18,965 bases of DNA from Promethearchaeota archaeon (GTDB lineage Archaea > Asgardarchaeota > Lokiarchaeia > Sigynarchaeales > SOKP01). The stretch is taken from contig DAOUUT010000034.1 in the NCBI GenBank assembly GCA_030668025.1, positions 1-18,965 on the forward strand, given 5' to 3'. The position numbers and the translations under genes are program-made. The notes beneath the pieces were generated by a model that saw only the letters and a program-made list of their open reading frames with translations, ran no database searches and was not told the origin of the DNA. Positions 1-16,242 of this stretch are shown here, in pieces (the stretch's first letter is position 1; every line of letters starts with the position of its first letter).

Positions 1-748
1 ACGGGACGATGGAGCGTGTTTCTGCATCTTCTATGTGATTTAGTTGATTTATAAGATATGATCGGACTAATATAATAGTAAATACCGTGATAAAGATAGT
101 TAAAGTTATCCATGGAAGAACTAAATGATACAGATAGTCAGTAAGTAAATACCATTGTCCAGAAAGCAATGAATCAATAGCTCGAAAACCAGTCACTAGT
201 GGTGGATCGGGTAGAGTAACGCTTTTATACCCAGTTACAGGAAATATGGGAAATACATAACCAAGAAAGAATTGAAACAACATGGCAAGCAAGAAAATGG
301 GAAATGCAAAACCTATAAGAGAAAGAACTTGAATGGATCTATTTCCTATTTTCGATCTGGTTTTTACTGAAAAATTTCCGAGTATCAATCCTAAAAACAA
401 TCCAATAATTAATGGCAAGATTATCAGATCCAGAGTACGAGGTAAGGTTACCGATATCAATGACTGCACAGGAAGGCCCCTAGCAAGAGAAAAAGATAAC
501 CCCCAATCACCCGAAAGCATTCTAAAAACAAAAAGGAAAAATTGTATTATTAAAGGCTGATTTAATCCTAATTGTTCCTTCATAGCTTCATATTCGTTCC
601 AATCAATCCTTCCCTCAGGAAGGTAAGATAAAACGGGATCACCTGGTAGAAATCGTGATATGTAAAATGAAATAACTATTGCTAGAATAAGAAGCACTAA
701 AGCGATTATGAGAGTAAAAATTAAATTTTTGTAGATTTTTTGCATCAT
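1..748 (-). CDS. DppB/OppB-type ABC transporter permease, 5' part (cut by left window edge)
   Basis: Reading the minus strand from the ATG at 748 gives 249 open codons running off the left edge, so the C-terminus is missing. This is a membrane permease subunit of the peptide/oligopeptide/nickel ABC importer family. What shows this: a first membrane helix at residues 9-30 followed by the family signature RFLPGDPV; then a periplasmic-type helix with EQLGLNQPL; the GDWGLSFS stretch; a conserved segment around TLPRTLDL; and three further hydrophobic helices at about 110-130, 145-175 and 215-235. The cytoplasmic EAA loop that contacts the ATPase begins at the edge. A tandem ATG (748 and 745) gives two possible starts. 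The substrate cannot be told from this subunit. Partner genes (DppC, ATPases, binding protein) would be expected downstream, outside the window. Confidence 0.9.
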   Translation of the reverse strand, partial: MMQKIYKNLIFTLIIALVLLILAIVISFYISRFLPGDPVLSYLPEGRIDWNEYEAMKEQLGLNQPLIIQFFLFVFRMLSGDWGLSFSLARGLPVQSLISVTLPRTLDLIILPLIIGLFLGLILGNFSVKTRSKIGNRSIQVLSLIGFAFPIFLLAMLFQFFLGYVFPIFPVTGYKSVTLPDPPLVTGFRAIDSLLSGQWYLLTDYLYHLVLPWITLTIFITVFTIILVRSYLINQLNHIEDAETRSIVP

Positions 749-767
749 TAAATTGCCTACTAAAATT

Positions 768-789
768 TTAGATTTGGAATTAAATCTAA
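768..789. promoter_or_regulatory. Perfect 8-bp inverted repeat in the permease promoter (operator candidate)
   Basis: The arms TTAGATTT (768-775) and AAATCTAA (782-789) are exact inverted complements around a 6-base spacer. On the minus strand the repeat directly follows an A/T-rich TATA-like stretch (about 786-797) and ends 20 bases before the permease ATG at 748. It would therefore cover the expected transcription start, a common site for archaeal repressors. That it is an operator is inference; the symmetry is directly visible. Confidence 0.45.
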
Positions 790-810
790 TATTATTTTAA
801 GAAAACGCAA

Positions 811-936
811 TTAATAAATATTTTCAATATAGAAAATTCCAGTTATGACTACTAATTTATTTCTAGGAATTACAACATCTATGTTTTTTAAGTTGTTTTG
901 CCTAGCTCCTTTTATAATTAGAGAATCTACAATCAT
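811..936 (-). pseudogene. uvrA: Truncated uvrA: first 33 codons only, then unrelated sequence and a stop
   Basis: An ATG at 936 is preceded by a good Shine-Dalgarno GGAG (942-945, 5-base spacing) and starts 54 bases after the uvrB stop. The frame encodes 41 residues. The first 33 match the UvrA N-terminus almost position for position: [15 protein letters not shown], then [11 protein letters not shown]. In every UvrA the next residues are LSGSGKS, completing the first Walker A. Here homology ends exactly after ITG (base 838), followed by eight unrelated residues and TAA (811-813). No frame downstream continues the match, so a simple frameshift does not explain it. UvrA is the roughly 940-residue damage-recognition ATPase that loads UvrB, and uvrB-uvrA is a common operon order. 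The rest of uvrA has been deleted or moved, or the assembly joins two unrelated pieces here. The fragment cannot encode a working UvrA. Confidence 0.85.
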
Positions 937-990
937 GGTTGCTCCTATTAACCTTCAATTCATAATAAAAGAAAAGTTTCACGCTTATAC

Positions 991-2985
991 TTAATAATCT
1001 TCCTTTATTGCTTTTATTTTATCTCTTAAAAACGCTGCGTCTTCAAACCTAAGTTCTTTAGCTGCCAAGAACATTTTGTTTTCAAGATAATGAATAATCA
1101 AATCTTTATCTCCTTCTTTTTCTAACTCTTCAATCTTATCCTTAATCTTTCTCTTTAGTTTGGTTGTTTCTTTCTCCTTGAATTCCTTATCTTCTGCAAG
1201 TGAGTTTAAAATGCTTTTCTTTATCGTTTGAGGCGTAATATTATTTTTTTGGTTATAATCATTTTGTTTCTTTCTTCTCCTGTTAGTTTCTTCTATTGCC
1301 GCCTTCATCGCTGAAGTAATTTTCCCTGCGTATAAAATTGCTCTTCCATCTATGTTTCGCGAAGCTCTTCCAATAGTTTGAATTAGCGATTTTGTATCTC
1401 TCAGAAACCCTAATTTATCTGCATCTAAAATAGCAACTAGTTTTACTTCAGGTAAATCTAATCCTTCTCTTAGGAGATTAATCCCAACTAAAACATCATA
1501 AGTTCCATCCCTTAGAGATCTTAATATTTCAAATCTTTCTACTGTGCCTATTTCAGAATGTAAGTAAGCAATCTTTAAACCAAGTTCAGCGTAATATTCC
1601 GCTATATCTTCTGACATTCGTTTCGTAAGAGTTGTTACTAAAATTCTCCCTTTGTTTTTAATTACTTTTCTAATTTCGTCTAACAGATCATCAATCTGAT
1701 TTTTTGCAGGACGAACCTCCACTTCAGGATCAACTAAGCCAGTCGGTCTAATTATCTGTTCTGCGGAAATGCCAATACTCTTTTCTAACTCCCAATTTCC
1801 CGGAGTTGCACTCATAAAAATTATATACTTTATCTTTGATTCCCATTCTTCGAATTTTAAAGGTCTGTTATCGTATGCCGATGGTAATCTCCACCCAAAG
1901 TCCACGAGATTCTTTTTTCTCGATCTATCTCCACCTATCATTCCATGAATTTGCGGAATCGTGATATGACTCTCATCAACAACGATTAAAAAGTCTTCTG
2001 GAAAGTAATCGATTAAGCACATTGGAGGACTACCGGGAGGCCTTCCATCTAAGTGTCTCGAATAGTTTTCTACTCCTTTGCACCATCCCATTTCCCTCAT
2101 CATTTCGAGATCAAATTTTGTTCTTTTCTCTATCCACTGTGCCTCTGCGTATTTTTTGTCCTTCATGAATTTTGCTATCTGGATTTCTAACTCTTCCTCT
2201 ATTGAAACCAAGGCTTTTGCTTTATTTTCTTCTGGTATAATAAAATGAGTTGCGGGAAAAATTCTGCAATTAGATATATTTTTTATTATACTATTTGAAA
2301 CGTGATGAATTTCTTGAATAGATTCGATTTCATCTCCAAATAAGGATATACGAATAGCAGTATTTAAATAAGCTGGAAAGATATCTATTATGTCTCCTCT
2401 GACTCTTAGGACCCCGGGTTTAAATTCGACATCTTTTCTCTCATAATTCATTAATATTAATCTTTTGATGATGTCACTTCTCTTAATATTTTGACCCACT
2501 TCGAGGTTTATAGATACGGCCGTCCATACTTTTGGGTCTCCAATTCCATAAATGCAAGAAACTGTTGCGACTATTATGACATCATTACGGGTTCTAATTG
2601 CGTGGGTGGCAGCTAATCTTAACCTTTCAATCTCTTCATTTACGCTAAAATCTTTCTCAATGTACAGTCCTGTCACCGGAAGGTATGCTTCTGGTTGGTA
2701 GTAATCGTAATATGAAACAAAATAATGGACGGTATTATGGGGGAATAATTCTTTTAGTTCGTTATATAACTGCGCAGCCAAAGTTTTGTTAGGTGCCATT
2801 ACTAACGTAGGTTTTTGGATTTTTTGTATGACTTGTGCAATAGAAAATGTTTTACCGGTACCTGTTGCACCTAAAAGAGTTTGAAACTTTTTTCCGCTTT
2901 TTATGTTTGCGGCTAAATTTTTTATCGCCTTAGGTTGGTCTCCGGAAGGTTTAAACTCAGATTCAATTTTGAAATTAGTAATCAT
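991..2985 (-). CDS. uvrB: UvrB, excinuclease ABC subunit B (nucleotide excision repair helicase)
   Basis: UvrB is the damage-verification helicase of nucleotide excision repair; UvrA loads it and UvrC cuts with it. The 664 residues are full length for the family. Visible motifs: Walker A GATGTGKT at 39-46; the beta-hairpin inserted between the strands, with the aromatic run YYDYYQPEAYLP at 92-103; Walker B DESH at 337-340; helicase motifs V and VI (GINLLREGLDLP and QTIGRASRN); and the C-terminal UVR coiled coil at about 625-660 that binds UvrC. The ATG at 2985 has a GGTGG ribosome site 8 bases upstream. The family is bacterial in origin and found in mesophilic archaea, presumably by transfer; codon use here looks like the neighbours, so the transfer is old. 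It is followed by the broken uvrA, so a working pathway needs uvrA and uvrC elsewhere in the genome. Confidence 0.97.
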   Translation of the reverse strand: MITNFKIESEFKPSGDQPKAIKNLAANIKSGKKFQTLLGATGTGKTFSIAQVIQKIQKPTLVMAPNKTLAAQLYNELKELFPHNTVHYFVSYYDYYQPEAYLPVTGLYIEKDFSVNEEIERLRLAATHAIRTRNDVIIVATVSCIYGIGDPKVWTAVSINLEVGQNIKRSDIIKRLILMNYERKDVEFKPGVLRVRGDIIDIFPAYLNTAIRISLFGDEIESIQEIHHVSNSIIKNISNCRIFPATHFIIPEENKAKALVSIEEELEIQIAKFMKDKKYAEAQWIEKRTKFDLEMMREMGWCKGVENYSRHLDGRPPGSPPMCLIDYFPEDFLIVVDESHITIPQIHGMIGGDRSRKKNLVDFGWRLPSAYDNRPLKFEEWESKIKYIIFMSATPGNWELEKSIGISAEQIIRPTGLVDPEVEVRPAKNQIDDLLDEIRKVIKNKGRILVTTLTKRMSEDIAEYYAELGLKIAYLHSEIGTVERFEILRSLRDGTYDVLVGINLLREGLDLPEVKLVAILDADKLGFLRDTKSLIQTIGRASRNIDGRAILYAGKITSAMKAAIEETNRRRKKQNDYNQKNNITPQTIKKSILNSLAEDKEFKEKETTKLKRKIKDKIEELEKEGDKDLIIHYLENKMFLAAKELRFEDAAFLRDKIKAIKEDY

Positions 2986-2987
2986 AA

Positions 2988-3054
2988 GTTAACCACCAAA
3001 TTTTGAAGTTAATTAAGATGAGGTTGAATATAATTTATAGACGATAGGTCTATA
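2988..3054 (-). promoter_or_regulatory. uvrB promoter with perfect inverted repeat beside the TATA element
   Basis: Reading the minus strand toward uvrB: a 7-bp perfect inverted repeat (arms 3036-3042 TATAGAC and 3048-3054 GTCTATA, 5-base spacer) runs into a TATA-like element (TATAAATTATA, about 3028-3038). A start of transcription would be expected near 3006-3008. The leader then carries GGTGG at about 2989-2994 before the ATG at 2985. The repeat overlaps where TBP/TFB would bind, so it is a plausible operator for repression of uvrB. The symmetry and spacing are seen; the regulatory role is inferred. Confidence 0.5.
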
Positions 3055-3088
3055 GATTTATTAATCAAACATAACTTATGATTTTTTC

Positions 3089-3111
3089 TAAAAAATATAA
3101 ATAAAAAAAAA
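3089..3111 (-). terminator. Poly-T terminator after STT3/aglB
   Basis: Directly after the aglB stop the minus strand carries a run of nine T, then an A/T-rich stretch and a second run of six T, without a stem. This is the usual stem-free archaeal terminator. It separates aglB from the uvrB promoter. Confidence 0.6.
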
Positions 3112-6100
3112 TTAAGAGACTACAGTTTCTTCGTGGATATCTTCTGCTCCTTCTTTGGTTCGAACTAATATTTTTAAAATGTCTCCAGAATTAACGGTAC
3201 CAATTATACTTTCTAAATCATTCATGCTAATTGTTAGTTGAATTGAATTTCCTACTCCAATTTCATAAATATCCTCAGTAAAACTATCCAAGGGGATAAA
3301 TATGTCATTAATATAAACTGAATGCACTGTAACACTGGATACTCCATTATTTTCTATTGATATTATTACTTTTTGATAATCTGATGCTACTGTTCCAGCA
3401 TCGTTAATATCTATATCGTAAAGGGATGAATCTACAGATGCAGAGAAATCCATGGAAACTTGAGTAGTAGTGTTAGTTGTTATATTGACATTAACGATAT
3501 TAGACGCATTTATCATCAACCCGGCAATATTAAAAGAGACTAAAGCACATTCTTGAACATCTAGATATTTATCTCCATATTCAAAATTTACATCGCTATC
3601 AAATGATAACATAGTTGTGGTATCTAAATATAATTTATCTAAAGTTATTGACTCGTCTCCAGTGTTTTTGATTAAGATTTTACCTGTCTCGTTAGCGGCA
3701 ATATAAGATATAGTTTGATTTTCGACATTTTCGATAATTTGTATATCTGGTTTGTTGTTTATTGTATGCACAAATCCAATATCAGAAGCTTTAGTTTCGC
3801 TATTAAAACTTGTTGTGACTAAAATTCCGAGCTCGTCGTTTACTTGGATAACACCTATTTCATCAGGAACTACTACGCTTACGCTTGTCTCTTGACCAGA
3901 CAACAAATTAGGAATTGGTTCTGTAACAACAGATGTCCAATTACTACTAGACGATTTAAGATATATTGATTCAAGTCCTAATGTCATGTCTCCAGTGTTT
4001 TTAATTTTAATATTAACTATAGTAGTTCCGTCATCGTAAGTATATGCGTAAGTATTGTTTAAATTAATTGGAATATGTCCCCTATAATCGCTGTGAGTAG
4101 CAATTAAGGCTTCAGGTGAAGCAATTCTACTTTCATTTACAATTGAAATTTTGAAATATTCATAATTTGAGGTAAATAATAGCTCATCTTTGATGTTATT
4201 TGGAGTAATAACACCTATTTTATGTTCAGTTCCTAAAGGATAAAACGGAACTAGTGAATTTGTTATATTAACATAAGCTTTTTGACCAGGATCTAATATG
4301 GGGGAACCAGATATATATTGTTCATCAAGGAGTGTATTATTTTCGTTATCTACATAAAAATCTTTCAAGATCACGGTTGCATCTCCAGTATTCTCAACTT
4401 CGAGATATATCTCACTATGAGTCGCATTGATTTGGATAACTTTACTATTGGGTTTATTAATTTTTATGTCTCCTTCCCGGGCTTCTTCAACAAAGAAATT
4501 ATCCGTACTATTTGTAAAGATATAAGGTTTATTATCCAAGGCTACTGATACAGCATCTACTGTAACTTTTACGACATCGTTAGTTTGCAATGTTTTATTG
4601 CTTGATTTCATATCAACCCAAACCAAGTCATTTTCGCGAGCATTGACTACATGTGTACCACTACCTTTACCCAAATCGAATTCATAACTCTCGTCATTTA
4701 TTCTGACACTGGAAATAGTTAAATTTTTCGAACCTGTGTTTTTTATCTTGAAAGTTGCATAACCGGTATCGAATACTTCGGGGTTTTCTATTTGAAAACT
4801 TGAATCTAAAGCAGTATAATCAAGACTAAATAGTTTAACCATCCCGTTTGTAGAGAAATATAATTCTCTAAATACATCAAAATTGTATTGGCCATCGTTT
4901 GGTATGTGTGTAGCATATAGATTCCCTGCGTCATCTGTTCTCGAGTGAATCTGTCCTCGATAATATTCCTCAAAGGTTGCGATGTTGCTTGGGTTTGGTG
5001 GAGGGTCAGTTTCAATTCCAGAAAACATTAATTTTACTAGAGTACTATCGAACCATTTTGTTGTTGGCATCGAAAGAGTACTGTTAAAATATTCGCTTTC
5101 ATCAAACACAGAATTTGGAGCCCAATTATCCTCCTCCATGCCAAAATTTTTATAGCTTTGGTAATTATCGTTACAAATCCTTACCATCCACGGCCATTTA
5201 CCTTCATCACCGCCTAAATTCGGATAGAGCATTCCAAAATAGACTAAGACATAATCTGCTTGTAGTGCTTTAAAAACTTTGGCGCTATATATCTCATTTG
5301 TTTGCATTAGTGCCATTCCTGTCATTCCTATCCGCGTTTGATTTATTGTTCCATTATCGTTAACCGTAGTCATGTTTCCTATTGGAGTGATCCAATAACC
5401 GTAGTCCCACCACGACACGACAACACTCGTTCCAGGAAGGTTTGTTTTCATCCAGGTTAGCGTTTCTTCCCAATCATGAAGGTCTCCTGGTGAGATTTGA
5501 CTTTGTGACAATTGAACAGTAGCCATATTAGAGGCATGGATTACTTGGGTAAAGCACATTATTCCAACAATAAAGTAAACCATGCCAATTTCAGATTTCC
5601 CTACCATTCTTTTAACTTGGCGTTTTCGTTTCCTACTGATTCCCGTTCTTTGTTCTCCAAAAAAACTGCCAAAAATTTTCAAAACGCTAACTAATCCATA
5701 GGCACCTACCAAGCATGCAGCAGGAGCAAATAATAATATTATTCGTATCATACTACCTGTGAAGTAAAAGAGCAAAATCATAAAAGTTATTAATAAAAAA
5801 TCCGCAGAGTTACCTCTTTTGAACATGAAGAACAACCCAAGGGGTAAAAGCATTAGGGGGATTAAAGTATTATAGTAGAATACGCTCCAAGAACTTGGCA
5901 TGTGCTCGGCTACAGACGAAGCAAGATTCAAACCATCTCGAAGCATAGGACTTAGAATGCTCGTTATTCTACCACCAAATCCAAATGGAATTAAATCAGG
6001 TGCCACCCATATAATTATGCCTCCTACTACAACAAGCGGTATTAAGGCCCATTTTAATACATCTAATAATCCGTTATAAAATCGAGGATAATCAACTTTA

Positions 6101-6984
6101 TTTATATGAATCAAATGAAAAATGATTAGTAATATTGTAAAAAGAAAAATCCCAAATAATTCCAAACTATTGAAAAAGTTAGCATAATTGAAAGTAAAAT
6201 TATATGAAAAAATTAATAATCCTAGACCTTCGACTCCTGCATACGCTACTAAGACATTTGAGTCGTACTTTTTGAGTAAGACTAAAATACCACATACTAA
6301 GGGTAGAATTAAATATACAAAACTATATCCACCCCAACTCAAGGATAAATATCCTAAAAATAAACCACCCAAAAAGGAATCGAGGATTTTACCTGTTCGT
6401 AAAGTTTTAACAAAGAAATATAATGTCATGAGAGTTGCAAATACACCAATCGTTTCATTATCAAAAAAACCCGCCATTGTTCTTTGCATAAATCCCGGAT
6501 TAAACGCCAAAAAGAACGCAGCCATTAGCCCGCATCTTCGGTCTAGCGTTTCTTTTCCCAATAGGTAGATCGCTAAAACAGAAGCTCCGCCCATAAAAGC
6601 GGGAAAATAGAAACAAACATCATAAAGGGATATTGGAATCCCAACGGAATTAATTATTTGGAATATGGTTACTACTGTGAATGTTAGCCCAGGTCTAAGA
6701 TTTCCACGAGTGTATCCCTCTGGATACCAACTTTTATAATCAACCCAATTAAAATAGTCGAAAACAGAGTGTGTTGATAAGTATTCGGCGTTGTAATATT
6801 GTATCCAAGGGTCAAAAGCTTTAATTAAGAAATTCCCCGAAGCAACTGGAGAAAGTCGAATTAATACTGTTAAGATTAAAACTAATGACAATGCGATGAA
6901 AAACAAAACATTAGTTGTTTTTATTGTAATACTTGCTCTTAAACGATCTCGTGAGTTTTTTAATGATGAATAAATTTTGGACAT
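3112..6984 (-). CDS. aglB: STT3/AglB oligosaccharyltransferase with five-repeat extracellular tail
   Basis: This membrane enzyme transfers a lipid-linked glycan to Asn in Asn-X-Ser/Thr sequons on the outer face of the cytoplasmic membrane. At 1290 residues it is longer than typical AglB (roughly 800-1000). The first helix is at 25-43; the metal-binding acid D58 lies in FDPW; the second acidic motif DNE is at 175-177; about a dozen hydrophobic helices follow to about 485. The catalytic signature WWDYG is at 525-529, and a DK-type motif (D593, K596, W599, M600 in GDEGKWPWM) resembles eukaryotic STT3, as does the TTVNDNGT segment. From about 740 the protein becomes a series of five beta-rich repeats, each with a core like IKNTGD followed by a TLxxxYxxD-type strand, near residues 744, 860, 992, 1103 and 1208. 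These look like CARDB/Ig-type domains. The tail holds over ten N-X-S/T sequons, so self-glycosylation is possible. It has its own promoter and terminator. Confidence 0.95.
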   Translation of the reverse strand: MSKIYSSLKNSRDRLRASITIKTTNVLFFIALSLVLILTVLIRLSPVASGNFLIKAFDPWIQYYNAEYLSTHSVFDYFNWVDYKSWYPEGYTRGNLRPGLTFTVVTIFQIINSVGIPISLYDVCFYFPAFMGGASVLAIYLLGKETLDRRCGLMAAFFLAFNPGFMQRTMAGFFDNETIGVFATLMTLYFFVKTLRTGKILDSFLGGLFLGYLSLSWGGYSFVYLILPLVCGILVLLKKYDSNVLVAYAGVEGLGLLIFSYNFTFNYANFFNSLELFGIFLFTILLIIFHLIHINKVDYPRFYNGLLDVLKWALIPLVVVGGIIIWVAPDLIPFGFGGRITSILSPMLRDGLNLASSVAEHMPSSWSVFYYNTLIPLMLLPLGLFFMFKRGNSADFLLITFMILLFYFTGSMIRIILLFAPAACLVGAYGLVSVLKIFGSFFGEQRTGISRKRKRQVKRMVGKSEIGMVYFIVGIMCFTQVIHASNMATVQLSQSQISPGDLHDWEETLTWMKTNLPGTSVVVSWWDYGYWITPIGNMTTVNDNGTINQTRIGMTGMALMQTNEIYSAKVFKALQADYVLVYFGMLYPNLGGDEGKWPWMVRICNDNYQSYKNFGMEEDNWAPNSVFDESEYFNSTLSMPTTKWFDSTLVKLMFSGIETDPPPNPSNIATFEEYYRGQIHSRTDDAGNLYATHIPNDGQYNFDVFRELYFSTNGMVKLFSLDYTALDSSFQIENPEVFDTGYATFKIKNTGSKNLTISSVRINDESYEFDLGKGSGTHVVNARENDLVWVDMKSSNKTLQTNDVVKVTVDAVSVALDNKPYIFTNSTDNFFVEEAREGDIKINKPNSKVIQINATHSEIYLEVENTGDATVILKDFYVDNENNTLLDEQYISGSPILDPGQKAYVNITNSLVPFYPLGTEHKIGVITPNNIKDELLFTSNYEYFKISIVNESRIASPEALIATHSDYRGHIPINLNNTYAYTYDDGTTIVNIKIKNTGDMTLGLESIYLKSSSSNWTSVVTEPIPNLLSGQETSVSVVVPDEIGVIQVNDELGILVTTSFNSETKASDIGFVHTINNKPDIQIIENVENQTISYIAANETGKILIKNTGDESITLDKLYLDTTTMLSFDSDVNFEYGDKYLDVQECALVSFNIAGLMINASNIVNVNITTNTTTQVSMDFSASVDSSLYDIDINDAGTVASDYQKVIISIENNGVSSVTVHSVYINDIFIPLDSFTEDIYEIGVGNSIQLTISMNDLESIIGTVNSGDILKILVRTKEGAEDIHEETVVS

Positions 6985-7004
6985 ATTTTCTCTCTAAACG
7001 CTTT

Positions 7005-7018
7005 TAATATAAATATAC
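7005..7018 (-). promoter_or_regulatory. TATA element of aglB (probably leaderless transcript)
   Basis: On the minus strand a TATA-like sequence (GTATATTTATATT) is centred about 27 bases before the aglB ATG at 6984. The spacing fits a transcript starting at or next to the start codon. No clear Shine-Dalgarno sequence lies in front of the ATG, in agreement. The rest of the gap to 7168 is A/T-rich and shows no gene. Confidence 0.45.
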
Positions 7019-7168
7019 TGAAATTATCATATGAAATTTAAAAATATAAAACGTTAAATTAAATTAAAAGCTTCTTTTTTGATAAATTAATTAATCTCAA
7101 TATTATAACATGAGTTTATTTTATTAGAAAATTCCGATTTCATACATAAAATTAAAATAATTTTAAAG

Positions 7169-8029
7169 ATGAAATTATTAGGAATGGAAAAAACAAGATA
7201 TCTCTTTAAATTTTATTACATAGGAGCGGAGGAATATTTCGGTTCTCAACGACAACCCAATTATTTAACTATTGAAGACTGCTTACTAACAGCTTTACAA
7301 GAAAAGAACTATATCCATGATTCTAAGAAATCAGATTTTGAGGTAGCAAGTAGAACAGATAAGTTTGTTTCTGCTCGAGGATCTACATTTTCTTTTCTTA
7401 CAGAAAAAATACCCATATTGATGGAGATAAATTCTGCTTTGCCAAAAAATATTGGCATCTGGGCTTATTCGAAAGTTCCAACTGACTTTTTTTCAAGATA
7501 TAACGCACAGTTTAGGCATTATAAATATATTATACCATATCCAAAAGCTATCCTTAAACAGGACTCCATAGTTAATTTTAAGGCAATGAAAAAGGTATGT
7601 AAGGCTCTAGAGGGACGACATAACTTTAAAAATTTTTCTAAATCAGGAAAAGAAGAAGTAAAAAATATTAGAGATATGATTTCGACATCAATTAATATAG
7701 AAGGGAATTTTATTATTTTCGATTTTAAAAGCAGAGCTTTTCTAAGACAACAAATAAGACGAATAGTAGCTAAGATTTTAGAAGTGGGATTTGGTAAAAT
7801 CAGTTATGAAGAATTTATAGATTTATTTGACCCATCTAAAGATATCTCTTATCAACCTGCTGATCCTTTTGGATTGATCTTGTGGGATATCAACTATGGT
7901 AATAATGTAAGTTTCCTAATCGATAATAAATCAAAAGAGAGAATGGAGAACTATTTTAGAGAGCAAGAGCAAAAATTCGCTTTAAAAAAAAAGTTATTTA
8001 ATTTCATGCAACATAACAATATTGGCTAA
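7169..8029 (+). CDS. truA: tRNA pseudouridine synthase, TruA family
   Basis: TruA/Pus3-type enzymes turn uridines of the tRNA anticodon stem-loop (positions 38-40) into pseudouridine. The 286 residues match the family. The catalytic aspartate is D64 in ASRTDKFVSARGS, equivalent to the SRTDxGVSA motif of archaeal TruA. The N-terminal strand and FGSQRQP resemble the usual YxGxQxQ start. The C-terminal half shows GRHNFKNF and the conserved FLRQQIRRIVAKIL helix. The typical Gly after SRTD is Phe here, a mild deviation. The start is uncertain: M1 at 7169 and M6 at 7184 are both possible, and the conserved region begins just after M6. No strong ribosome site supports either. The last 36 bases overlap the end of the convergent RFC gene. 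Confidence 0.92.
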   Translation: MKLLGMEKTRYLFKFYYIGAEEYFGSQRQPNYLTIEDCLLTALQEKNYIHDSKKSDFEVASRTDKFVSARGSTFSFLTEKIPILMEINSALPKNIGIWAYSKVPTDFFSRYNAQFRHYKYIIPYPKAILKQDSIVNFKAMKKVCKALEGRHNFKNFSKSGKEEVKNIRDMISTSINIEGNFIIFDFKSRAFLRQQIRRIVAKILEVGFGKISYEEFIDLFDPSKDISYQPADPFGLILWDINYGNNVSFLIDNKSKERMENYFREQEQKFALKKKLFNFMQHNNIG

Positions 8030-8965
8030 TAACGCTTGTAATTGAATCTCTTCCGTACCTCCTTGGCTTAATCGATATTCAGATTCAGCTAAGAGTTTAG
8101 AAAGCTCAATTTTCAGGTCTTCTGAGATTTGTAAGTCGTAAATCTCTCGATGTATATTTTTAATAATATTGATCCCCGACAAACCGTATTCTCTTATGAT
8201 ATCATTAAGTAATTTCAAGGAAAATTGTAATTGCCCTTCAATTGCAGTTTTTAAAATTTCTCTTATTTTATCTGATGGTACTTCGCCAGCAACACGAAAA
8301 ACTATATCTTGATCTATTTTTTTTGAAATTGTACTACAAGATTGCAAGTAATTTATAGCTCTACGACAATCTCCCTTCGATACATCTACTAAAGCAATTA
8401 ACCCATCTGGAGTTAGGCTCATTTGTTCTTGATTAGCGATAAATTTTATCCTCTCTTTAATGTCCTCTTTATTCAAAGAAGAAAATCTAAAAACAACGCA
8501 TCTAGATTGGATTGGGGGGATAATTTTATTAGAATAGTTACAAATTAAAACCATCCTACAATTTTTAGTGTATTTTTCCATTGTTCTCCTTAGTGCTTGC
8601 TGAGCTGGCGCCGTCATATTGTCCGCCTCGTCTAAGATTAAAATTTTGAACGGTATATCAGACGGAGGTTTTGCTTTTGCAAAATCCTTAATGTAAGTTC
8701 TAATAACATTAATACCTCTTGCATCACTTGCATTTAATTCTAAAAAAGTAGTATTAGTCGCCATTTTTCTCCCATACAGGCCCCTAACCATTGCTAGAGC
8801 AGAAGTTGTTTTCCCTGTACCTGCTGGACCAGCAAATATAAGGTGGGGCATCGATTTATCTTTAATAAATTGTTGTAAACGCTTTATTATCCCCTTTTGA
8901 TTAACAACATCACCTAAAAGGCGAGGTCTATACTTTTCTACCCAAGGTTTGTTATCCGTTGTCAT
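7994..8965 (-). CDS. rfcS: Replication factor C small subunit (clamp loader ATPase)
   Basis: RfcS subunits join one large subunit to load the PCNA sliding clamp onto primed DNA. The 323 residues are normal for the family. Motifs: the N-terminal PWVEKYRPRLL (RFC box II); Walker A GPAGTGKT at 46-53; box with ELNASDARGI at 76-85; Walker B LILDEAD with D112-D115; sensor 1 near CNYSNKI at 142-148; the SRC arginine-finger motif at 154-156 (RFC box VII); and a C-terminal helical collar from about 230. The ATG at 8965 follows an A/T-rich divergent promoter region shared with enolase. A TATA-like stretch around 8997-9010 on the minus strand would give a short leader of about 10 bases. The large subunit is not in the window. 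Confidence 0.97.
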   Translation of the reverse strand: MTTDNKPWVEKYRPRLLGDVVNQKGIIKRLQQFIKDKSMPHLIFAGPAGTGKTTSALAMVRGLYGRKMATNTTFLELNASDARGINVIRTYIKDFAKAKPPSDIPFKILILDEADNMTAPAQQALRRTMEKYTKNCRMVLICNYSNKIIPPIQSRCVVFRFSSLNKEDIKERIKFIANQEQMSLTPDGLIALVDVSKGDCRRAINYLQSCSTISKKIDQDIVFRVAGEVPSDKIREILKTAIEGQLQFSLKLLNDIIREYGLSGINIIKNIHREIYDLQISEDLKIELSKLLAESEYRLSQGGTEEIQLQALLANIVMLHEIK

Positions 8966-9079
8966 TTAAACACTAAATTCTAATAAAGGCTTATAATAAT
9001 ATATAAAAAGATATTATTAAGAATTAAACTTTCTTTATTTTATTTCAGAACTATAATAAACAGAGTAGGAAATTTTAAA
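8966..9079. promoter_or_regulatory. Divergent promoter region between rfcS and enolase
   Basis: This 114-base A/T-rich gap serves two outward genes. For rfcS, a TATATAA-like run lies at 8997-9010. For enolase, CTATAATAAAC at 9051-9061 is centred about 25 bases before the ATG, fitting a leaderless or nearly leaderless transcript. An AGGA (9067-9070) also lies 9 bases before that ATG. No gene is seen in the gap. Confidence 0.4.
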
Positions 9080-10384
9080 ATGACAGACTTTAAAATTACA
9101 AAAATTAGGTCTCGTTGGATTTTAGATTCGCGTGGAAATCCGACGGTTGAAACCGATGTTTATGTAGGTAAGATTTATGCAAGAGCGGCTGTTCCTTCAG
9201 GTGCATCAACAGGCGTTTTAGAGGCTCTCGAATTGAGGGACGGGGGAACTGCTTTCTTGGGTAAACATGTAACTAAAGCAGTATCAAATGTTAACAATAT
9301 TTTAGGGGAAAAATTAAAAGGATTTGATGTGAGGGAACAAGAAAAGTTAGATAAAGAAATGCTTTCAATTGATGGAACTGAAAATAAAAGTAAATTGGGA
9401 GCAAATGCTATATTGTCGGTTTCTTTAGCTGTCGCGAAACTAGCTGCGCTATTAGACGAAAAACCATTATTTGTTCATCTCCATGAATTAGCATATCATA
9501 AGACTCGAAAAGATTTCTTATTACCATTACCATGTTGCAATATTATAAATGGGGGGGAACATGCGGGCAATAATTTATCGATACAAGAATTTATGATCTT
9601 ACCCGTAGGAGCACCAAACTTCGCTCAAGCAATCCAAAACGTCTCAGAGGTGTATCAAACATTAAAGAAGTTATTAGCCAAAAAACATGGCCCCTCAGCA
9701 ACTAATGTGGGTGATGAGGGTGGCTTCGCTCCAAATTTATCTTTAACTAAAGATGCTGTAGAGATTATTATAGAAGCAATTGAGGAAGCGGGCTTTTCAA
9801 TGAGAACAGATTTTTTCTTAGGTATGGATGCGGCTGCGAGTGAATTTTTTGAGGATGGTACATACAATATTGACGGTAATAAGTTAACTGAAGGGGAATT
9901 GTTGCAGTACTATCTTGACTTAATTAATGATTATCCATTCAAGTCAATAGAAGATCCATTTGACGAAAAAGCGTTTAGTGGTTTTACCAATTTAACTGCA
10001 AAAGTCGATAAATCAATACAAATTGTCGATGATGACCTTACAGTTACTAATATAAAAATACTTGAAAAAGCAATTAAAGAAAAAGCGGGAAATGCGTTGT
10101 TATTAAAAGTAAATCAGATTGGTTCGCTAACTGAGGCAATAAATGCTGCAAAAATGTCTTTCAAAAATGGATTTAATGTCATGGTCTCCCATCGTTCGGG
10201 CGAAACTGAAGATCCCTTCATAGCAGATTTAGCAGTTGGACTTTGTACAGGACAATTAAAAACGGGCGCAACGGCAAGATCTGATCGAAATTGTAAATAT
10301 AACCAGTTGTTAAGAATTGAAGAATTCTTAGGGCCAAATGCTAATTATCCTAAACAATTAGATTCTTGGAAAAAATTTCAATAA
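9080..10384 (+). CDS. eno: Enolase (phosphopyruvate hydratase)
   Basis: Enolase interconverts 2-phosphoglycerate and phosphoenolpyruvate in glycolysis and gluconeogenesis, in the cytoplasm. The 434 residues are full length. The active site is complete: the mobile loop SGASTG at 40-45; H161 in GGEHAGNN; the catalytic acid E213 in GDEGG; metal ligands D250, E291 (in EDPF) and an Asp in the DDD at 317-319; the catalytic base K343 in LLKVNQIG; and SHRSGETED at 370-378. The N-terminal domain has the standard LDSRGNPTVE start. It stands alone as a plus-strand gene, running into a poly-T run beyond its stop, and is convergent with the methyltransferase gene 15 bases away. Confidence 0.98.
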   Translation: MTDFKITKIRSRWILDSRGNPTVETDVYVGKIYARAAVPSGASTGVLEALELRDGGTAFLGKHVTKAVSNVNNILGEKLKGFDVREQEKLDKEMLSIDGTENKSKLGANAILSVSLAVAKLAALLDEKPLFVHLHELAYHKTRKDFLLPLPCCNIINGGEHAGNNLSIQEFMILPVGAPNFAQAIQNVSEVYQTLKKLLAKKHGPSATNVGDEGGFAPNLSLTKDAVEIIIEAIEEAGFSMRTDFFLGMDAAASEFFEDGTYNIDGNKLTEGELLQYYLDLINDYPFKSIEDPFDEKAFSGFTNLTAKVDKSIQIVDDDLTVTNIKILEKAIKEKAGNALLLKVNQIGSLTEAINAAKMSFKNGFNVMVSHRSGETEDPFIADLAVGLCTGQLKTGATARSDRNCKYNQLLRIEEFLGPNANYPKQLDSWKKFQ

Positions 10385-10390
10385 GTAAGT

Positions 10391-10408
10391 CTATTTTTTT
10401 TAATTTTT
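10391..10408 (+). terminator. Poly-T terminator after enolase
   Basis: A run of eight T (10394-10401) and a second of five T (10404-10408) begin about ten bases after the enolase stop. There is no stem, as is usual in archaea. The run overlaps the last codons of the convergent methyltransferase gene. Confidence 0.5.
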
Positions 10409-11044
10409 AATAAATCTATAAACATTTACAGCAACTTTTTTTGTCTTTTTTGTATGGAACGGAAAAGACCTTTCTAAAACTAAATTAAAAGGTAATACAT
10501 AATTAATACTCCAGTTTTTAGAGCTTACAAATTTAGATATAAAATTATGAACTTTTTCATTAGCTAAATGAATCGAATAAACTACATCCGAGAAAGAAAA
10601 GGCTTTTTGTAAAAAAAATCTATCAGCGGTTTTTTTTTGCACTCCAAAAGGAGGGTTCATAATTGTCGTGATATTTAACTCTTTAGGAAATAATTGTGCT
10701 GAGATTTCAAACCTATTAATGTCAGCGCACACAGGTAAAATTGCAGCTTCAAGATCCAAATTTTTTACGTTTCCTTTTAAAACCTTTATTGCATCCAAAT
10801 CTATATCAATGCTTAAAACATACTTAGCTTGAAGGTACGCACAAGAAATCGATAATCTGCCCGTTCCTGCGCCAAGATCGAGTATTAATCGGTTTTTAAT
10901 GTCGTTAAATTCAACTCCCGCAAAAAATATGATGTCTACTGCACTATTCGCATCAGTGCAATATTGCTCTAACTCTATTTTGGGATTGGTAAATACTTCT
11001 GTTTGTTGAACTAACGATATTAAATCTTTTTTATTAATCTCAAT
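10400..11044 (-). CDS. METTL5-like rRNA adenine N6-methyltransferase (apparent AUU start)
   Basis: This is a Rossmann-fold SAM-dependent methyltransferase related to METTL5, which makes N6-methyladenosine in small-subunit rRNA. Motif I is DLGAGTGR (56-63), motif II has SIDID near 79-82, and the adenine-methylase signature NPPF is at 130-133, followed by GVQKKTADRFF as in METTL5. The N-terminal FTNPKIELEQYCT matches the family start. The coding frame continues well upstream of the TTG at 10798, the first conventional alternative start: motif I lies before it, so that start would remove the SAM site. An in-frame TAG sits at 11048-11050, and between it and the conserved region there is no ATG, GTG or TTG. 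The best start is the ATT at 11044 (214 residues). A weak AGG lies 3-6 bases upstream. A sequencing error is the main alternative. Confidence 0.85.
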   Translation of the reverse strand: MEINKKDLISLVQQTEVFTNPKIELEQYCTDANSAVDIIFFAGVEFNDIKNRLILDLGAGTGRLSISCAYLQAKYVLSIDIDLDAIKVLKGNVKNLDLEAAILPVCADINRFEISAQLFPKELNITTIMNPPFGVQKKTADRFFLQKAFSFSDVVYSIHLANEKVHNFISKFVSSKNWSINYVLPFNLVLERSFPFHTKKTKKVAVNVYRFIKN

Positions 11045-11153
11045 CGCCTAAAATATCCACGCTATAATTTTATTAATGAAAATTTATGAAAAAACTTAAT
11101 TGTTTTAATTAATTATAATTTAATAGAGAAATTAAAAGGTTTTTGTTAAAATT
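11045..11153. promoter_or_regulatory. Divergent gap between METTL5-like gene and csl4
   Basis: This A/T-rich 109-base gap lies between outward genes. A TATA-like ATTATAATTTAA at about 11109-11120 would start a csl4 transcript near 11140, with a leader of about 15 bases. The purine-rich AAAAGG at 11132-11138 is too far from the ATG to be a convincing ribosome site. No gene is seen. Confidence 0.3.
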
Positions 11154-11750
11154 ATGAAAGAATCAGCGAAAAATAAAGAAATCGTTCTTACGGGTCAATA
11201 TTTAGGTGTTGTAGAAGAATTTCTACCCGATAAACAATCTACTTATGTAAAAGATGGTCAAATTATTGCATCTAAAACGGGAATAATCAATATTGATACG
11301 AATAAAAGATTAATAGAAGTAAGAGATCATCAAGAAGAAAATCGAAAAACAGTAAAAATTGGAGATCCCGTAATCGGGACGGCACTGTTTTTAAGGCAGT
11401 ATTCTGTGGGCCTTAATTTTCATACAATCAATAACAAAATTCATTTTAATAGCTCATATTTTGGTAATATTCATGTTTCTCAGATATCAAAAAAATATAT
11501 CGAGAGGATCTCAGATGCTTTTCAAACTACCGATATTATTCGAGCAAAAGTAATCGAGCAGAATTATAACGAATATAAATTAAGCACCTCTGGAAAAAAT
11601 TTTGGAGTTATTCATGCTGATTGCTTAATATGTGGAACACATCTTAAGAAGATAGGGATAGATAGATTAAGATGTCCCAGATGTGGAAGTCTTGAAAGCA
11701 GAAAATTAGCCGACGATTACGGAAATGTAACTGAAAACTTAAGATATTAA
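11154..11750 (+). CDS. csl4: Exosome cap subunit Csl4
   Basis: Csl4 is a cap subunit of the archaeal RNA exosome and helps bring RNA substrates and DnaG to the Rrp41/Rrp42 ring. The 198 residues match archaeal Csl4. The order is an N-terminal barrel domain (LTGQYLGVVEEFLPD, residues 11-60); a central S1 RNA-binding domain at about 70-146; and a C-terminal zinc ribbon with C157, C160, C174 and C177 (CLIC and CPRC). It begins a plus-strand run that includes rpoL, a pairing common in archaea, where exosome and polymerase genes often cluster. The METTL5-like gene that often sits beside csl4 is here too, but in divergent orientation. Confidence 0.94.
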   Translation: MKESAKNKEIVLTGQYLGVVEEFLPDKQSTYVKDGQIIASKTGIINIDTNKRLIEVRDHQEENRKTVKIGDPVIGTALFLRQYSVGLNFHTINNKIHFNSSYFGNIHVSQISKKYIERISDAFQTTDIIRAKVIEQNYNEYKLSTSGKNFGVIHADCLICGTHLKKIGIDRLRCPRCGSLESRKLADDYGNVTENLRY

Positions 11751-11779
11751 AAATTAACTAATTTTTAAGGGTTTTATTC

Positions 11780-12001
11780 TTGGGTAGCCGTGGTGGAAGA
11801 AAAGTAATACACTTCTATAATTCAAATGGGGAGTTGAATAATACTATTAAATTTCTTGAAGAAGTTCAAAAAAAAATAAATTATCTTACCCTAAACTGTA
11901 CAGTTGATGGCAATTCGATAAAAATCTCATTATTTGGCCCGAAAGACCTCCAATATTTAGCAACTGAAAGATTAAAAGAGTTAGCTAATCGATATTTATA
12001 A
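11780..12001 (+). CDS. Small protein of unknown function between csl4 and rpoL
   Basis: The 73-residue frame starts at a TTG (11780); an in-frame stop at 11759-11761 leaves no other conventional start, and AAGGG lies 8-12 bases upstream. I do not recognise the family. The predicted order is strand (KVIHFY, 8-13), helix (ELNNTIKFLEEVQKKI, 18-33), strand (YLTLNCTVDG, 35-44), strand (SIKISLFGP, 46-54), helix (DLQYLATERLKELANRYL, 56-73). This looks like a compact beta-alpha-beta-beta-alpha unit, as in small RNA- or protein-binding folds. The basic, glycine-rich start GSRGGRK would suit nucleic-acid contact. It sits 29 bases after csl4 and 91 before rpoL, so a role in RNA metabolism is plausible but unproven. 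Coding is supported by clean length, position and the amphipathic helices. Confidence 0.7.
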   Translation: MGSRGGRKVIHFYNSNGELNNTIKFLEEVQKKINYLTLNCTVDGNSIKISLFGPKDLQYLATERLKELANRYL

Positions 12002-12092
12002 AATTGCTTATCTTATTAGTGTTTTAAAACCAAAAAACATTTATTTAATTCTAAATTAGAGAAATTAGATTCACAGATTTTGGTAGAATATA

Positions 12093-12590
12093 TTGGCAAA
12101 AAAAAAAATTGTACCTAAGGAAGAAGATAAAGACAATGAAGAAGATTTATTTGACAAGGAAGATATAGATAGCCATTATCCCGTTGTATCAGATGGATCT
12201 GTGAAAAAAGACGAGCCACCTATTGCAGAAACAACTGAGCAGACTGAAAAAGCTGAATCGGAAGAAGAAGAAGAAGTAGAACAAGCTCCAGAACTACCAG
12301 AATACACGATATTAGAATTAAATCTTATAAGTGGTCCAGGGGACAACGATTATACTTTAACCCTTAAAGGCCAATCGCATGGTTTTTGTAATATCTTAGT
12401 AAAACATTTGTTAACGATCGAAGGAGTTATAGCTGCGGCTTATAAAATTACGGAAAAAGCCTTATCACCACCTCAAATTTTTGTTAGACTCGAAGACGGA
12501 TACAAATTAAAAGAAATCTTTTTCAAAGGAGTCGACGCGTTGAGAAATGAAGTTGCTGAAACCCAGAAATTATTTAAAAAACTTATGTAA
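12093..12590 (+). CDS. rpoL: RNA polymerase subunit L (Rpb11 homologue) with long acidic N-terminal extension
   Basis: RpoL pairs with RpoD (Rpb3) to form the assembly platform of archaeal RNA polymerase. Residues 72-162 form the Rpb11-type domain: ILELNLISG; the helix after GQSHGFCNILVKHLL (equivalent to the HTLxNLL motif, with T and L replaced); GVIAAAYK; and a long C-terminal helix. Typical archaeal RpoL is about 90-100 residues; this one has 165. The extra 70 N-terminal residues are low complexity, with 26 Asp/Glu including a run of five Glu near 57-61, and are probably disordered. The start is a TTG at 12093, with a weak GGT-containing site upstream and a TATA-like CATTTATTTAAT at 12039-12050. 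The extension is in the same frame without a stop, and no conventional start lies close to the domain, so it is probably made. Confidence 0.85.
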   Translation: MAKKKIVPKEEDKDNEEDLFDKEDIDSHYPVVSDGSVKKDEPPIAETTEQTEKAESEEEEEVEQAPELPEYTILELNLISGPGDNDYTLTLKGQSHGFCNILVKHLLTIEGVIAAAYKITEKALSPPQIFVRLEDGYKLKEIFFKGVDALRNEVAETQKLFKKLM

Positions 12591-12596
12591 TGAATC

Positions 12597-12604
12597 TTTT
12601 TTTT
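12597..12604 (+). terminator. Poly-T terminator after rpoL
   Basis: A run of eight T begins six bases after the rpoL stop and lies before the next gene's BRE/TATA promoter, so transcription probably ends and restarts here. Confidence 0.5.
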
Positions 12605-12613
12605 CAGTTTTAT

Positions 12614-12627
12614 GAAAAGTTTATAAG
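12614..12627 (+). promoter_or_regulatory. BRE/TATA promoter of the RNase III-fold gene (leaderless)
   Basis: GAAAAG (12614-12619) followed directly by TTTATAAG (12620-12627) is a close match to the archaeal BRE plus TATA pair. The TATA centre is about 27 bases before the ATG at 12651, which puts the transcription start at the start codon. No Shine-Dalgarno sequence is present, in agreement with a leaderless message. This is the clearest promoter in the window. Confidence 0.6.
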
Positions 12628-12650
12628 AAATTACTGATCATCTATTCTTA

Positions 12651-13103
12651 ATGGCATATAATTTTTTATTAAAAGATTTAAACCTTAATCTAACCCAAAG
12701 ATCCATAGGAACTGATAAGGGGTTAGCAAAAATAGGAGATGGTATTGTTAATCTTACTTACTCGGTTGCTAAATCCATGTATTTAACGCGTAATAACAAA
12801 AATAATAAAATTATTCGAACGGGTAAGAAAGTAAGTAAAACAATTTTAGCAGAAGCTTTAAAAGACGCAAACATGAAAAGTTTTTCCAAAAGCAGAGCAA
12901 ACGCTCACGATCTCGCAGACACCGTTGAAGCTATTATTGCCTACATCTGGTTTAGTGAAAAAATGGCGATAAAGGAAATTATAAATTTTCTCACAGATTC
13001 TCTTACAGGAGATTTATACATAAGGCATATCGAAATAGAAAACGCCAAGATTGCGTTCACAAAGCTCTTAAATCACATTAAAAAATTCTTACCTGAAAAT
13101 TAA
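12651..13103 (+). CDS. RNase III-fold protein without dsRNA-binding domain, one catalytic acid missing
   Basis: The 150 residues form a single RNase III domain without the C-terminal dsRNA-binding domain, similar in build to bacterial Mini-III. The signature helix is GLAKIGDGIVNLTYSVAKS (24-42), aligned with the LEFLGDAVL motif; the second catalytic helix is DLADTVEAIIAYIW (87-100), aligned with LADxxEAxxGAIY. Three of the four metal-binding acids are present (D30, D90, E93). The first Glu of LEFLGD is Ala (A26), which in well-studied RNase III enzymes would weaken or change metal binding. The protein may still cut RNA with altered metal use, or act as a binding protein. It has its own leaderless promoter, and its stop lies two bases before the DUF99 gene, so the two are co-transcribed. 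Confidence 0.8.
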   Translation: MAYNFLLKDLNLNLTQRSIGTDKGLAKIGDGIVNLTYSVAKSMYLTRNNKNNKIIRTGKKVSKTILAEALKDANMKSFSKSRANAHDLADTVEAIIAYIWFSEKMAIKEIINFLTDSLTGDLYIRHIEIENAKIAFTKLLNHIKKFLPEN

Positions 13104-13105
13104 GC

Positions 13106-13666
13106 ATGAAGGATTTTCCAATAACAATTGGATTTGACGACGCAAGATTTAACCTCAATTCACATTCTAAAACTACTGATTTAATAGGGATCGTCTGTCA
13201 AGGTGTTAGGATGGTAAGTATGGTTAAAAAAAAAATTACAATTGATGGAAGCGACGCTACAGAAGTTTTGATCGAACTCGCTAAGCGAAACGAAAAACAT
13301 ATTCAATACATTTTAACTGACACAATTACTTTTGGCGGATTTAACATAATTGATTTAGAGGAGATTTACGAGCGAATAGACAAACCAATAGTAGCTATAA
13401 CCGAAAAAAAAGTCGATCTTATGGCTGTCAAAAAAGCGATTGTTAAGAATTTTCCTAACCGCTATAAAGAAAAACTTCAAAACATAGTTAACGCAGGTAA
13501 TTTATATGAAACTTCTGTTGAAACGGCTGGTGGAATCTCCAAAATTTATTTTCATTCTAAAGGGATGCAGTTTTCTGAAGTAGAATCCTTGCTAAAAAAA
13601 ATATGCGTTGATTCCAAAATACCTGAGCCTGTTCGACTAGCCCACATAATAGGAAATACCTTATAA
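13106..13666 (+). CDS. DUF99 family protein (endonuclease V-like fold)
   Basis: The 186 residues match DUF99 (UPF0215), an archaeal family related to endonuclease V, which acts on inosine in nucleic acids. The start shows IGFDDARF (8-14) with the paired Asp typical of the family; the central DTITFGGFNIIDL (72-84) matches the conserved GGFN element; then KPIVAITEKK; and the C-terminal EPVRLAHIIG. The exact substrate of DUF99 is not established. The start lies two bases after the RNase III-fold gene, so translation may be coupled, and both may act on RNA. It ends 16 bases before the convergent GTPase gene. Confidence 0.85.
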   Translation: MKDFPITIGFDDARFNLNSHSKTTDLIGIVCQGVRMVSMVKKKITIDGSDATEVLIELAKRNEKHIQYILTDTITFGGFNIIDLEEIYERIDKPIVAITEKKVDLMAVKKAIVKNFPNRYKEKLQNIVNAGNLYETSVETAGGISKIYFHSKGMQFSEVESLLKKICVDSKIPEPVRLAHIIGNTL

Positions 13667-13682
13667 AGCTTTCTGTAGAAAA

Positions 13683-14159
13683 TTAAAAGGTGGCAATCTC
13701 GTATTCCAAAATTTCTTTCATTCTTTCGCGCAATTCAGGTCGAATAGCCGACATTCCATAAGTTTTTAACCCACCTAACCTCTTCTGAACGTCTTTAGCA
13801 CTTAACCTACCAGGTAAGTCTTGTTTATTCGCGATGGCAATGATTTTGGTCCCCAAAGTACGTTCAAACCTTTTATAAATCTCTTTAGTTTGATTTACAT
13901 TTTTCTCGGTTGAATCGCATACAATAACTGCCAAACCAGCACCTTTCAAGAAATCCTGCCACATGAACTTAAACCTTTTCTGTCCTCCTAAATCCCATAT
14001 TGAGCATTTTTTACCGCTCAAAATGGAGTCTTCTACCTCTAATCCCACCGTAGGGACTCTTTCCTCTTGAACTTCCCTTCCCTGCAATAAGGAGAGCAGT
14101 GATGATTTACCTACGTTCTGTTCTCCAATAAAACAAATTTTTTTCTTTGTAGAAAACAA
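13683..14159 (-). CDS. Arf-family small GTPase
   Basis: This is a single-domain Ras-like GTPase of 158 residues. G1 is GEQNVGKS (12-19), G2 is T37 in PTVG, G3 is WDLGGQ (55-60), G4 is NKQD (111-114) and G5 is SA (137-138). WDxGGQ and NKQD are hallmarks of the Arf/Arl/Sar group, and PTVGLEVE resembles the Arf switch I. Such GTPases are abundant in Asgard archaea and eukaryotes. The N-terminus lacks the Arf myristoylation glycine and the long amphipathic helix (only about seven residues precede strand 1), and there is no C-terminal cysteine, so direct lipid anchoring is unlikely. The start is a TTG at 14159; an upstream in-frame TAG excludes a longer form, and TTAGGA lies about 12 bases upstream. 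It is co-oriented with EF-1A, 169 bases downstream of it. Confidence 0.92.
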   Translation of the reverse strand: MFSTKKKICFIGEQNVGKSSLLSLLQGREVQEERVPTVGLEVEDSILSGKKCSIWDLGGQKRFKFMWQDFLKGAGLAVIVCDSTEKNVNQTKEIYKRFERTLGTKIIAIANKQDLPGRLSAKDVQKRLGGLKTYGMSAIRPELRERMKEILEYEIATF

Positions 14160-14328
14160 AATTAACCATTCCTAATCAAAAATTACCTTAATTAGAAAAA
14201 GCAATCAATTGTTCAAAAAAGAAAATAATATTCACATAATATGAAATTTTATAATCAGTTTAATTAGAAAAAATGAAAAAATAAATAAAATTAGATATAA
14301 ATAAAAAAATCAAAAAAAGGCTAAATCT
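14160..14328. other. A/T-rich gap between EF-1A and the GTPase gene
   Basis: No gene is seen in these 169 bases. They hold the EF-1A terminator at one end and the GTPase ribosome-site region (AGGA at about 14170-14174, minus strand) at the other. A 13-base direct repeat (TTAATTAGAAAAA) occurs at 14188-14200 and 14260-14272. No convincing TATA element stands out. Confidence 0.35.
14302..14318 (-). terminator. Double poly-T terminator after EF-1A
   Basis: On the minus strand, ten bases after the EF-1A stop, two runs of seven T are separated by GA. No stem is present. The signal suggests that the GTPase gene downstream is transcribed separately from EF-1A. Confidence 0.55.
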
Positions 14329-15639: not shown

Positions 15640-15804
15640 TTTTAATCAATTTCCTAATGTTTTTTTTTAAGAATTAATTTTGAATTGTACATTTTTAGAT
15701 TGAATGATAACTACCTTAATGATATCGAATATTTATTTTTTACTATAAATTAAAGTTATATTTCTGAAGGAAGCACTTGGTTAAAGTACTATGTCATAAA
15801 TTCA
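15640..15804. promoter_or_regulatory. EF-1A upstream region
   Basis: This 165-base A/T-rich gap holds the EF-1A promoter region on the minus strand, with an AGGA ribosome site at about 15651-15654 and a run of nine A upstream of it. No single TATA element is convincing. No gene or RNA is seen. Confidence 0.3.
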
Positions 15805-16242
15805 TTATTCCTTTTTATTATCTAACCTTGTTAGGTATTCCCCTCTTAGATCTGAATATAATTCTCTTTTATTTTTATTTAAAAGATCGAAAATTTGGTG
15901 AATTTCGTTTTGGAAATTGATTTCTTTCCCTTTTTTATTTACTATGTGAGTTTTAACTTTTTCTTGTAGGAATTTATTAAAAATCAGGTCAATATTGTAA
16001 ATATCAAAGCGAGTTTCTCTAAAATAATCTAACAGGTGATGTAAGTAAAAAGCTTTTACATACAAGTTCTTATCACTATATTTTTTCTCTAAATCTTTTT
16101 GATGAAAGAACTTTAGTTGTTTGACGATAACGCTTTCTTCGTCGTTGTTATGATCGTTATTATTCAAATTAAATGCCCAAGTAGTCCCGTAATCGATGTT
16201 CCTATCGACGACATTCGCGATTAATTCGTCTATTCCCGCCAT
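15805..16242 (-). CDS. Hypothetical protein, 145 residues, between EF-1A and aIF2-alpha
   Basis: I do not recognise this family. The ATG at 16242 follows GTGGG with 6-base spacing. The N-terminus (MAGIDELIANVVDRNIDYGTT) is probably helical, then comes an Asn/Asp-rich loop at about 27-36, and from about 38 the protein looks mainly alpha-helical and strongly charged. The most distinctive element is YLHHLLDYFRETRFD (66-80). Its clustered His-His, Asp and Glu might bind metal, but that is a guess. There is no signal peptide or membrane segment, so a cytoplasmic protein is expected. It is co-oriented with EF-1A but 165 bases away, and divergent from aIF2-alpha across a 203-base promoter region. 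Base composition is like the neighbours. Confidence 0.75.
   Translation of the reverse strand: MAGIDELIANVVDRNIDYGTTWAFNLNNNDHNNDEESVIVKQLKFFHQKDLEKKYSDKNLYVKAFYLHHLLDYFRETRFDIYNIDLIFNKFLQEKVKTHIVNKKGKEINFQNEIHQIFDLLNKNKRELYSDLRGEYLTRLDNKKE

Follow-up and report, generated by a model that had tools for sequence, protein, structure and literature searches.

Whether an organism has lost UvrA is the question raised by a short remnant of uvrA lying next to an intact uvrB. Such a remnant is found in an 18,965-nucleotide stretch of DNA from a Promethearchaeota archaeon (contig DAOUUT010000034.1, positions 1 to 18,965), the whole of which is referred to here as the window. The uvrB gene (991..2985, minus strand) is an intact open reading frame of 664 amino acids (aa) with UvrB_inter, UvrB, UVR, and helicase Pfam matches over the cut-off. 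As described in a first-pass annotation made from the sequence alone, it is followed on the minus strand by a GGAG resembling a ribosome site (942..945) and by the ATG of uvrA at position 936. Alignment to uninterrupted relatives assigned codons 1 to 34 of native uvrA to positions 835..936 (minus strand). The annotation had placed the end of the residues ITG at base 838, which is correct, and had ended the match at the same base; the match in fact reaches base 835, in codon 34. The open frame of this stump (811..936, minus strand) continues into a non-uvrA tail, FYIENIY, and a stop codon that ends at position 811. The join between stump and foreign DNA lies at 834..835 (minus strand), where a few bases could belong to either side. 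Beyond it, as the annotation had also indicated, the DNA leads into an ABC transporter permease frame (2..748, minus strand; PF00528, 30.5 bits with a cut-off of 26.4) that runs off the contig end. The stump runs straight into the permease block, and uvrB has indeed been parted from its operon partner. No tRNA was detected at the site in 11 loci or anywhere in the window, and an Rfam scan of the window gave no match. The gene content of the window is archaeal. Elsewhere in it, we noted a 158-aa Arf/Ras-like small GTPase (13683-14159, minus strand) and two frames that gave no Pfam match, one of 132 aa (10400-10798) and one of 145 aa (15805-16242), both on the minus strand.

The closest genome compared was G001, with which 22% of the window's sampled 31-letter words are common. 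Five relatives match the DNA of uvrB plus stump at 93 to 95%, and the stump is therefore not a chance match. Past the stump point, the relatives read on as GISGSGKSSLAMDTLYAEGQ. Only 4 of the 34 stump codons differ from those of G001, 3 of them silently; judged by this divergence, the break looks recent, one of the two readings that the annotation had offered. Uninterrupted sites, in which uvrA lies intact directly after uvrB and is followed by infB, occur in G001, G005, and G023. The annotation had held that a related contig with intact uvrA would expose the break as an assembly artefact. Such contigs exist, but they are the uninterrupted sites of other species and do not prove an artefact.

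We consider an assembly or read chimera at the 835/834 join very unlikely. It is true that this exact join was found in no other genome compared and that the contig ends 834 bases further on, at a point common to G012. The window's positions 1..141 match the opening 141 bases of contig C70 of G012 exactly and both contigs end there, from which we infer an assembly-graph fork at k=141. However, the bases shared at the join are too few for a k-mer-based false join, a scar of the same type, with different bases at the join, is present in at least seven other genomes, and three others carry the permease block after uvrB.

The recurrence of the scar was assessed in a family sample of 65 genomes around G001, using a 36-residue uvrA-start query and counting as stumps open frames of up to 63 aa with at least 73% identity. 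At least 7 of the 65 genomes carry a stump (G011, G015, G016, G064, G069, G072, and G075; frames of 41 to 63 aa, identity of 73 to 100%), making eight with the window. An order-level search of 79 genomes, including the 65, gave no extra stump by the same criterion among the matches listed. By eye, we spotted a shorter stump of about 20 codons in G082, which we read as the product of a later deletion because the first cargo gene is the same as that of G075. In 41 of the 65 family genomes, uvrB and uvrA lie on one contig and strand; the two genes are within 150 bp of each other in 25 of these and separated by 193 bp to 20.65 kb in the other 16. The remaining 24 genomes comprise 6 with the genes on different contigs, 10 in which one gene was found, and 8 in which neither was. 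uvrB and uvrA lie on different contigs in G011 and G075, so a rearrangement is possible in these two.

By alignment and by eye, all eight stumps end at about codons 33 to 40, in the Walker A stretch GISGSGKS, with the ends in G064, G072, and G075 uncertain by some bases owing to decay. If breaks fell evenly over codons 33 to 56, the chance of finding eight of eight in codons 33 to 40 would be 1.5e-4, a figure that assumes independent breaks and is to be read in the knowledge that shorter stumps are harder to find. The stump of G072 is itself of a foreign type, with a leader, which points to a second insertion on a re-made uvrA.

Several other uvrA-like sequences were seen in the course of these searches. 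Matches of lower identity or in longer frames, such as those in G060 C5 (128 aa, 71%) and G025 C289 (175 aa), were left out of the stump set and are probably UvrA paralogues. UvrA-like frames of 1623 to 1656 aa, about twice a UvrA-type unit, are present in G008 C83, G020 C148, G022 C190, G025 C289, and G036 C168, and four of these five adjoin a frame of about 835 to 850 aa. Five loci on viral contigs have a uvrA start at 44 to 63% identity. We also considered G031 as an excision scar, its codons 37 to 50 being 98% identical to those of G071; this reading is weak and was set aside, G071 being the nearest match to G031 over nucleotides (nt) 200 to 900 as well (0.88).

The annotation had proposed that UvrA must come from elsewhere or that UvrB works without it. 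Loss of UvrA, or a UvrB that works without it, is not supported by the relatives: at least six of the seven stump-bearing genomes have a complete uvrA frame of 957 to 968 aa among the matches listed. The exception is G069 (93% complete), which has a stump and no complete uvrA among the matches listed, as would be expected if UvrA could really be lost. G017, in which the same permease block follows uvrB, argues in the opposite direction, since it has a uvrA with a foreign start. We regard true loss of UvrA in the window's organism as very improbable, and the organism presumably carries a complete uvrA. The search for uvrC that the annotation had recommended found the gene in 8 of the 10 relatives searched; the misses were G017 (79% complete) and G072 (76% complete).

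We next compared the surviving uvrA genes with those of uninterrupted sister genomes. The uvrA genes of G011 and G015 are 96% identical to that of their sister G023 over nt 300 to 2700, whereas at the start of the gene the same pairs are only 57 to 82% identical in 40-nt steps. The dense mismatch ends at nt 168 in G011, nt 150 in G015, nt 153 in G017 (compared with G014), and nt 153 in G064 (compared with G027). Thus, each of the four interrupted genomes that could be set against an uninterrupted sister retains a uvrA with a native body and a foreign segment covering its first 50 to 56 codons. Two control comparisons of uninterrupted sisters did not show such a step. The foreign starts read MN[ED][FY]I..KGAR, and SSLVINTL replaces SSLAMDTL in G011, G015, and G017, as it does in G071 and G073, which belong to another genus. 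In a tree of codons 3 to 50, G011, G015, and G017 cluster with G071, G072, G073, and G082 of that other genus, whereas in a tree of codons 70 to 940 each genome stays in its own genus; both trees are without support values. The noncoding leader upstream of the foreign starts is also related between genomes: G017 compared with G073, G075, and G082 scored z values of 15 to 19 over shuffles, and weaker scores were obtained for G011 (9.9), G015 (5.9), and G071 (4.2). The leader of G064 (z of 2.7) has no clear kinship to the others. As judged from these comparisons of sequence, we conclude that the 5′ ends of uvrA move horizontally.

The foreign start is neither fixed in extent nor universal. By eye, G075 and G070 turn to the native type earlier, at about codons 9 and 24, so the right switch point is not fixed. 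In G016, which also bears a stump, the complete uvrA starts in the native form, with a copied uvrB tail ahead of it; hence, a foreign start is not found in every case. In G008, G009, and G010, a second copy of the stretch from the end of uvrB to the start of uvrA precedes uvrA. Although its site is uninterrupted, G005 shows a patch of silent-site differences at the Walker A codons (0.75 to 0.78 over nt 80 to 120 compared with G001 and G023), and such patches therefore need not mean insertion. This tempers the reading of G015, whose last stump bases (nt 102 to 117) differ from G023 only at silent sites, a pattern that hints, from base differences, at a foreign stump that came with the cargo.

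The block at positions 1..836 of the window (minus strand), which comprises the upstream region and start of the ABC permease gene, is present at high identity right after uvrB in 3 of 58 relatives, at 97% in G017, 95% in G012, and 92 to 93% in G010. The neighboring uvrB genes are only 73 to 79% identical, and we conclude from this difference that the permease block moves horizontally; two species of one sample probably share it. In G012, another open frame lies between uvrB and the block. Sequence resembling the 3′ tail of uvrB precedes the block in G010, G012, and G017 (loci L036, L037, and L038). We observed further copies of this tail-like sequence, about 30 bases long, at insert edges in the same three genomes.

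Across genomes, different cargo occupies this one locus between conserved genes. The insert of G082 encodes two glycyl-radical enzymes, an oligopeptide transporter, an enoyl-CoA hydratase, and a TetR protein; that of G073, a ClC channel; that of G064, a leucine-rich repeat (LRR) protein and a HEPN match below the cut-off; and that of G069, TPR and WD40 proteins. The two arms in G011, found on separate contigs and perhaps parts of a single insert, encode DSR1-like, Fic, HerA-like, and LAGLIDADG proteins. Directly after the stump of G069 (L080:811-9634), we noted TPR/WD40/LRR repeat proteins of 301, 639, and 1928 aa, and in the insert of G015 an 84-aa frame which, on visual inspection, resembles part of a transposase. 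The flanks that follow the stumps were unlike in 27 of 28 pairs, with only the pair G016/G075 exceeding a z of 2.5. The score of that pair was reached by 13 of 2000 shuffles, and it was not used as a shared left end of the inserts.

Breaks clustered near one site, a re-supplied gene start, and insertions that stack would also be expected of an integrase-borne chromosomal island with the Walker A part of uvrA as its attachment site and with the 5′ end of the gene on board, most copies having decayed and lost the integrase. Streptococcal islands are known at repair genes: SpyCI sits in mutL, and SpnCI and SmiCI target uvrA at its 5′ end or promoter, according to the portion of the source available (PMC4129442). 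The scars described here resemble SpnCI and SmiCI, as presented there, in that entry is at the 5′ end of a repair gene (the stumps end at about codons 33 to 40) and can uncouple an operon. However, the islands in that part of PMC4129442 have a conserved integrase and a fixed attachment site, whereas we found no PF00589 (tyrosine recombinase) match between uvrB and uvrA in any of 16 closed inserts and no PF00239 (resolvase family) match at the locus in 15 genomes. The PF00589 count covers closed inserts, those of G011, G075, G069, and G017 being open. In G011, PF00589 matches on contigs C22 and C78 and a PF00239 match on C50 could lie in the unseen middle of the insert. Separately, the contig that carries uvrB also has a PF00589 gene in G011 (C82:124060) and in G035 (C6:27026), in both cases about 25 kb away on the far side of uvrB. 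The joints also fail to coincide, again unlike those of the streptococcal islands so far as that portion of the source describes them: the left joint is at about codons 33 to 40 and the right at codons 50 to 56 in G011, G015, and G064, where a conservative exchange needs coincidence, although later conversion could have blurred the match. Nor is the cargo related between genomes. We consider such an island unlikely.

A nuclease that cuts the Walker A codons of uvrA, followed by repair from an incoming, differently coded start, would account for the clustering of the left breaks and for a foreign segment that passes the break up to the first well conserved DNA. In its favor, several foreign starts have AGT rather than TCN for the serine after GSGK; against it, the foreign start of G011 itself has TCG. 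In G011, a LAGLIDADG domain is encoded some 2.5 kb upstream of the complete uvrA, the only one near uvrA among the inserts scanned; it is possibly an intein, sitting as it does in a 1469-aa protein (L055:6053-10462, minus strand; LAGLIDADG_3, 26.1 bits with a cut-off of 22.5). The inserts examined have no nuclease gene in common, and homing of this kind is, in our estimation, very unlikely. A related idea is that islands without an integrase break uvrA at Walker A and bring a differently coded start and leader, acting as a natural cut-and-rescue cassette; we rate this as a long shot. With about the same reserve, such a cassette would keep the repair gene working, uncouple it from uvrB, and re-create the target so that insertions can stack.

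We favor, with rather better than even confidence, the explanation that the uvrB/uvrA junction is a cargo-insertion hotspot that often re-supplies the start of uvrA and is spread by homologous recombination. Cargo DNA, of which the ABC-permease block is the part visible in the window, would enter where uvrA begins. Its left side would be marked by a stump of native uvrA, about 33 to 40 codons long, remaining next to uvrB. On the right, the incoming DNA would bring a leader and a uvrA 5′ end of its own and recombine with the native gene. The switch within uvrA, at codons 50 to 56 in the four measured cases, shows recombination on this side. The outcome would be a complete, chimeric uvrA downstream of the cargo. 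Homologous recombination at the flanks may afterward carry insertion alleles and their cargo from one species to another. For the left joint and the chronology, our preferred route is that recombination at both flanks spreads alleles derived from older breaks at Walker A, with turnover of cargo; plain recombination gives no explanation for the clustering at Walker A.

Hotspots without an integrase, maintained by recombination at flanking core genes, have been described for bacterial species (PMC5635113, in the portion available). As in that account, variable cargo lies between two core genes and a flanking gene is mosaic: uvrA is chimeric in G011, G015, G017, and G064, and the two trees differ. 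The locus described here differs from the hotspots in that portion of the source: transfer runs between archaeal species and genera, remnants of the gene are left behind, and gene starts are supplied anew. Homology-facilitated illegitimate recombination has been proposed for gene displacement in Vibrio (PMC5361080, in the part available). As far as the available parts of PMC5361080 and PMC3240628 describe it, it pairs a homologous joint with one that lacks visible homology and leaves displaced remnants; the present locus may resemble it, with a homologous joint on the right and left flanks unlike each other. The present breaks differ in clustering near Walker A, and the stump of G015 hints at homology on the left. 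Among archaea, the Heimdallarchaeal elements HeimM2 and HeimV2 and the aloposons occupy a site between 16S rRNA and tRNA-Arg (PMC8813620, in the portion available). They too are archaeal elements at one recurrent site, and HeimM2 has a homing-endonuclease-like gene; the site there is an rRNA-tRNA site, and "uvrA" has 0 occurrences in the available portion of the PMC8813620 text. Among the literature records listed in our searches, we recognized no report of a uvrA insertion in these archaea.

What had appeared to be a gene loss thus becomes a repeatable insertion scar. For annotation, the scar warns against taking a short uvrA remnant next to uvrB to mean that UvrA is missing. For the biology of these archaea, the junction offers a test case for cargo exchange at a core locus in which our scans detected no integrase, and another for whether the separation of uvrB from uvrA alters repair.
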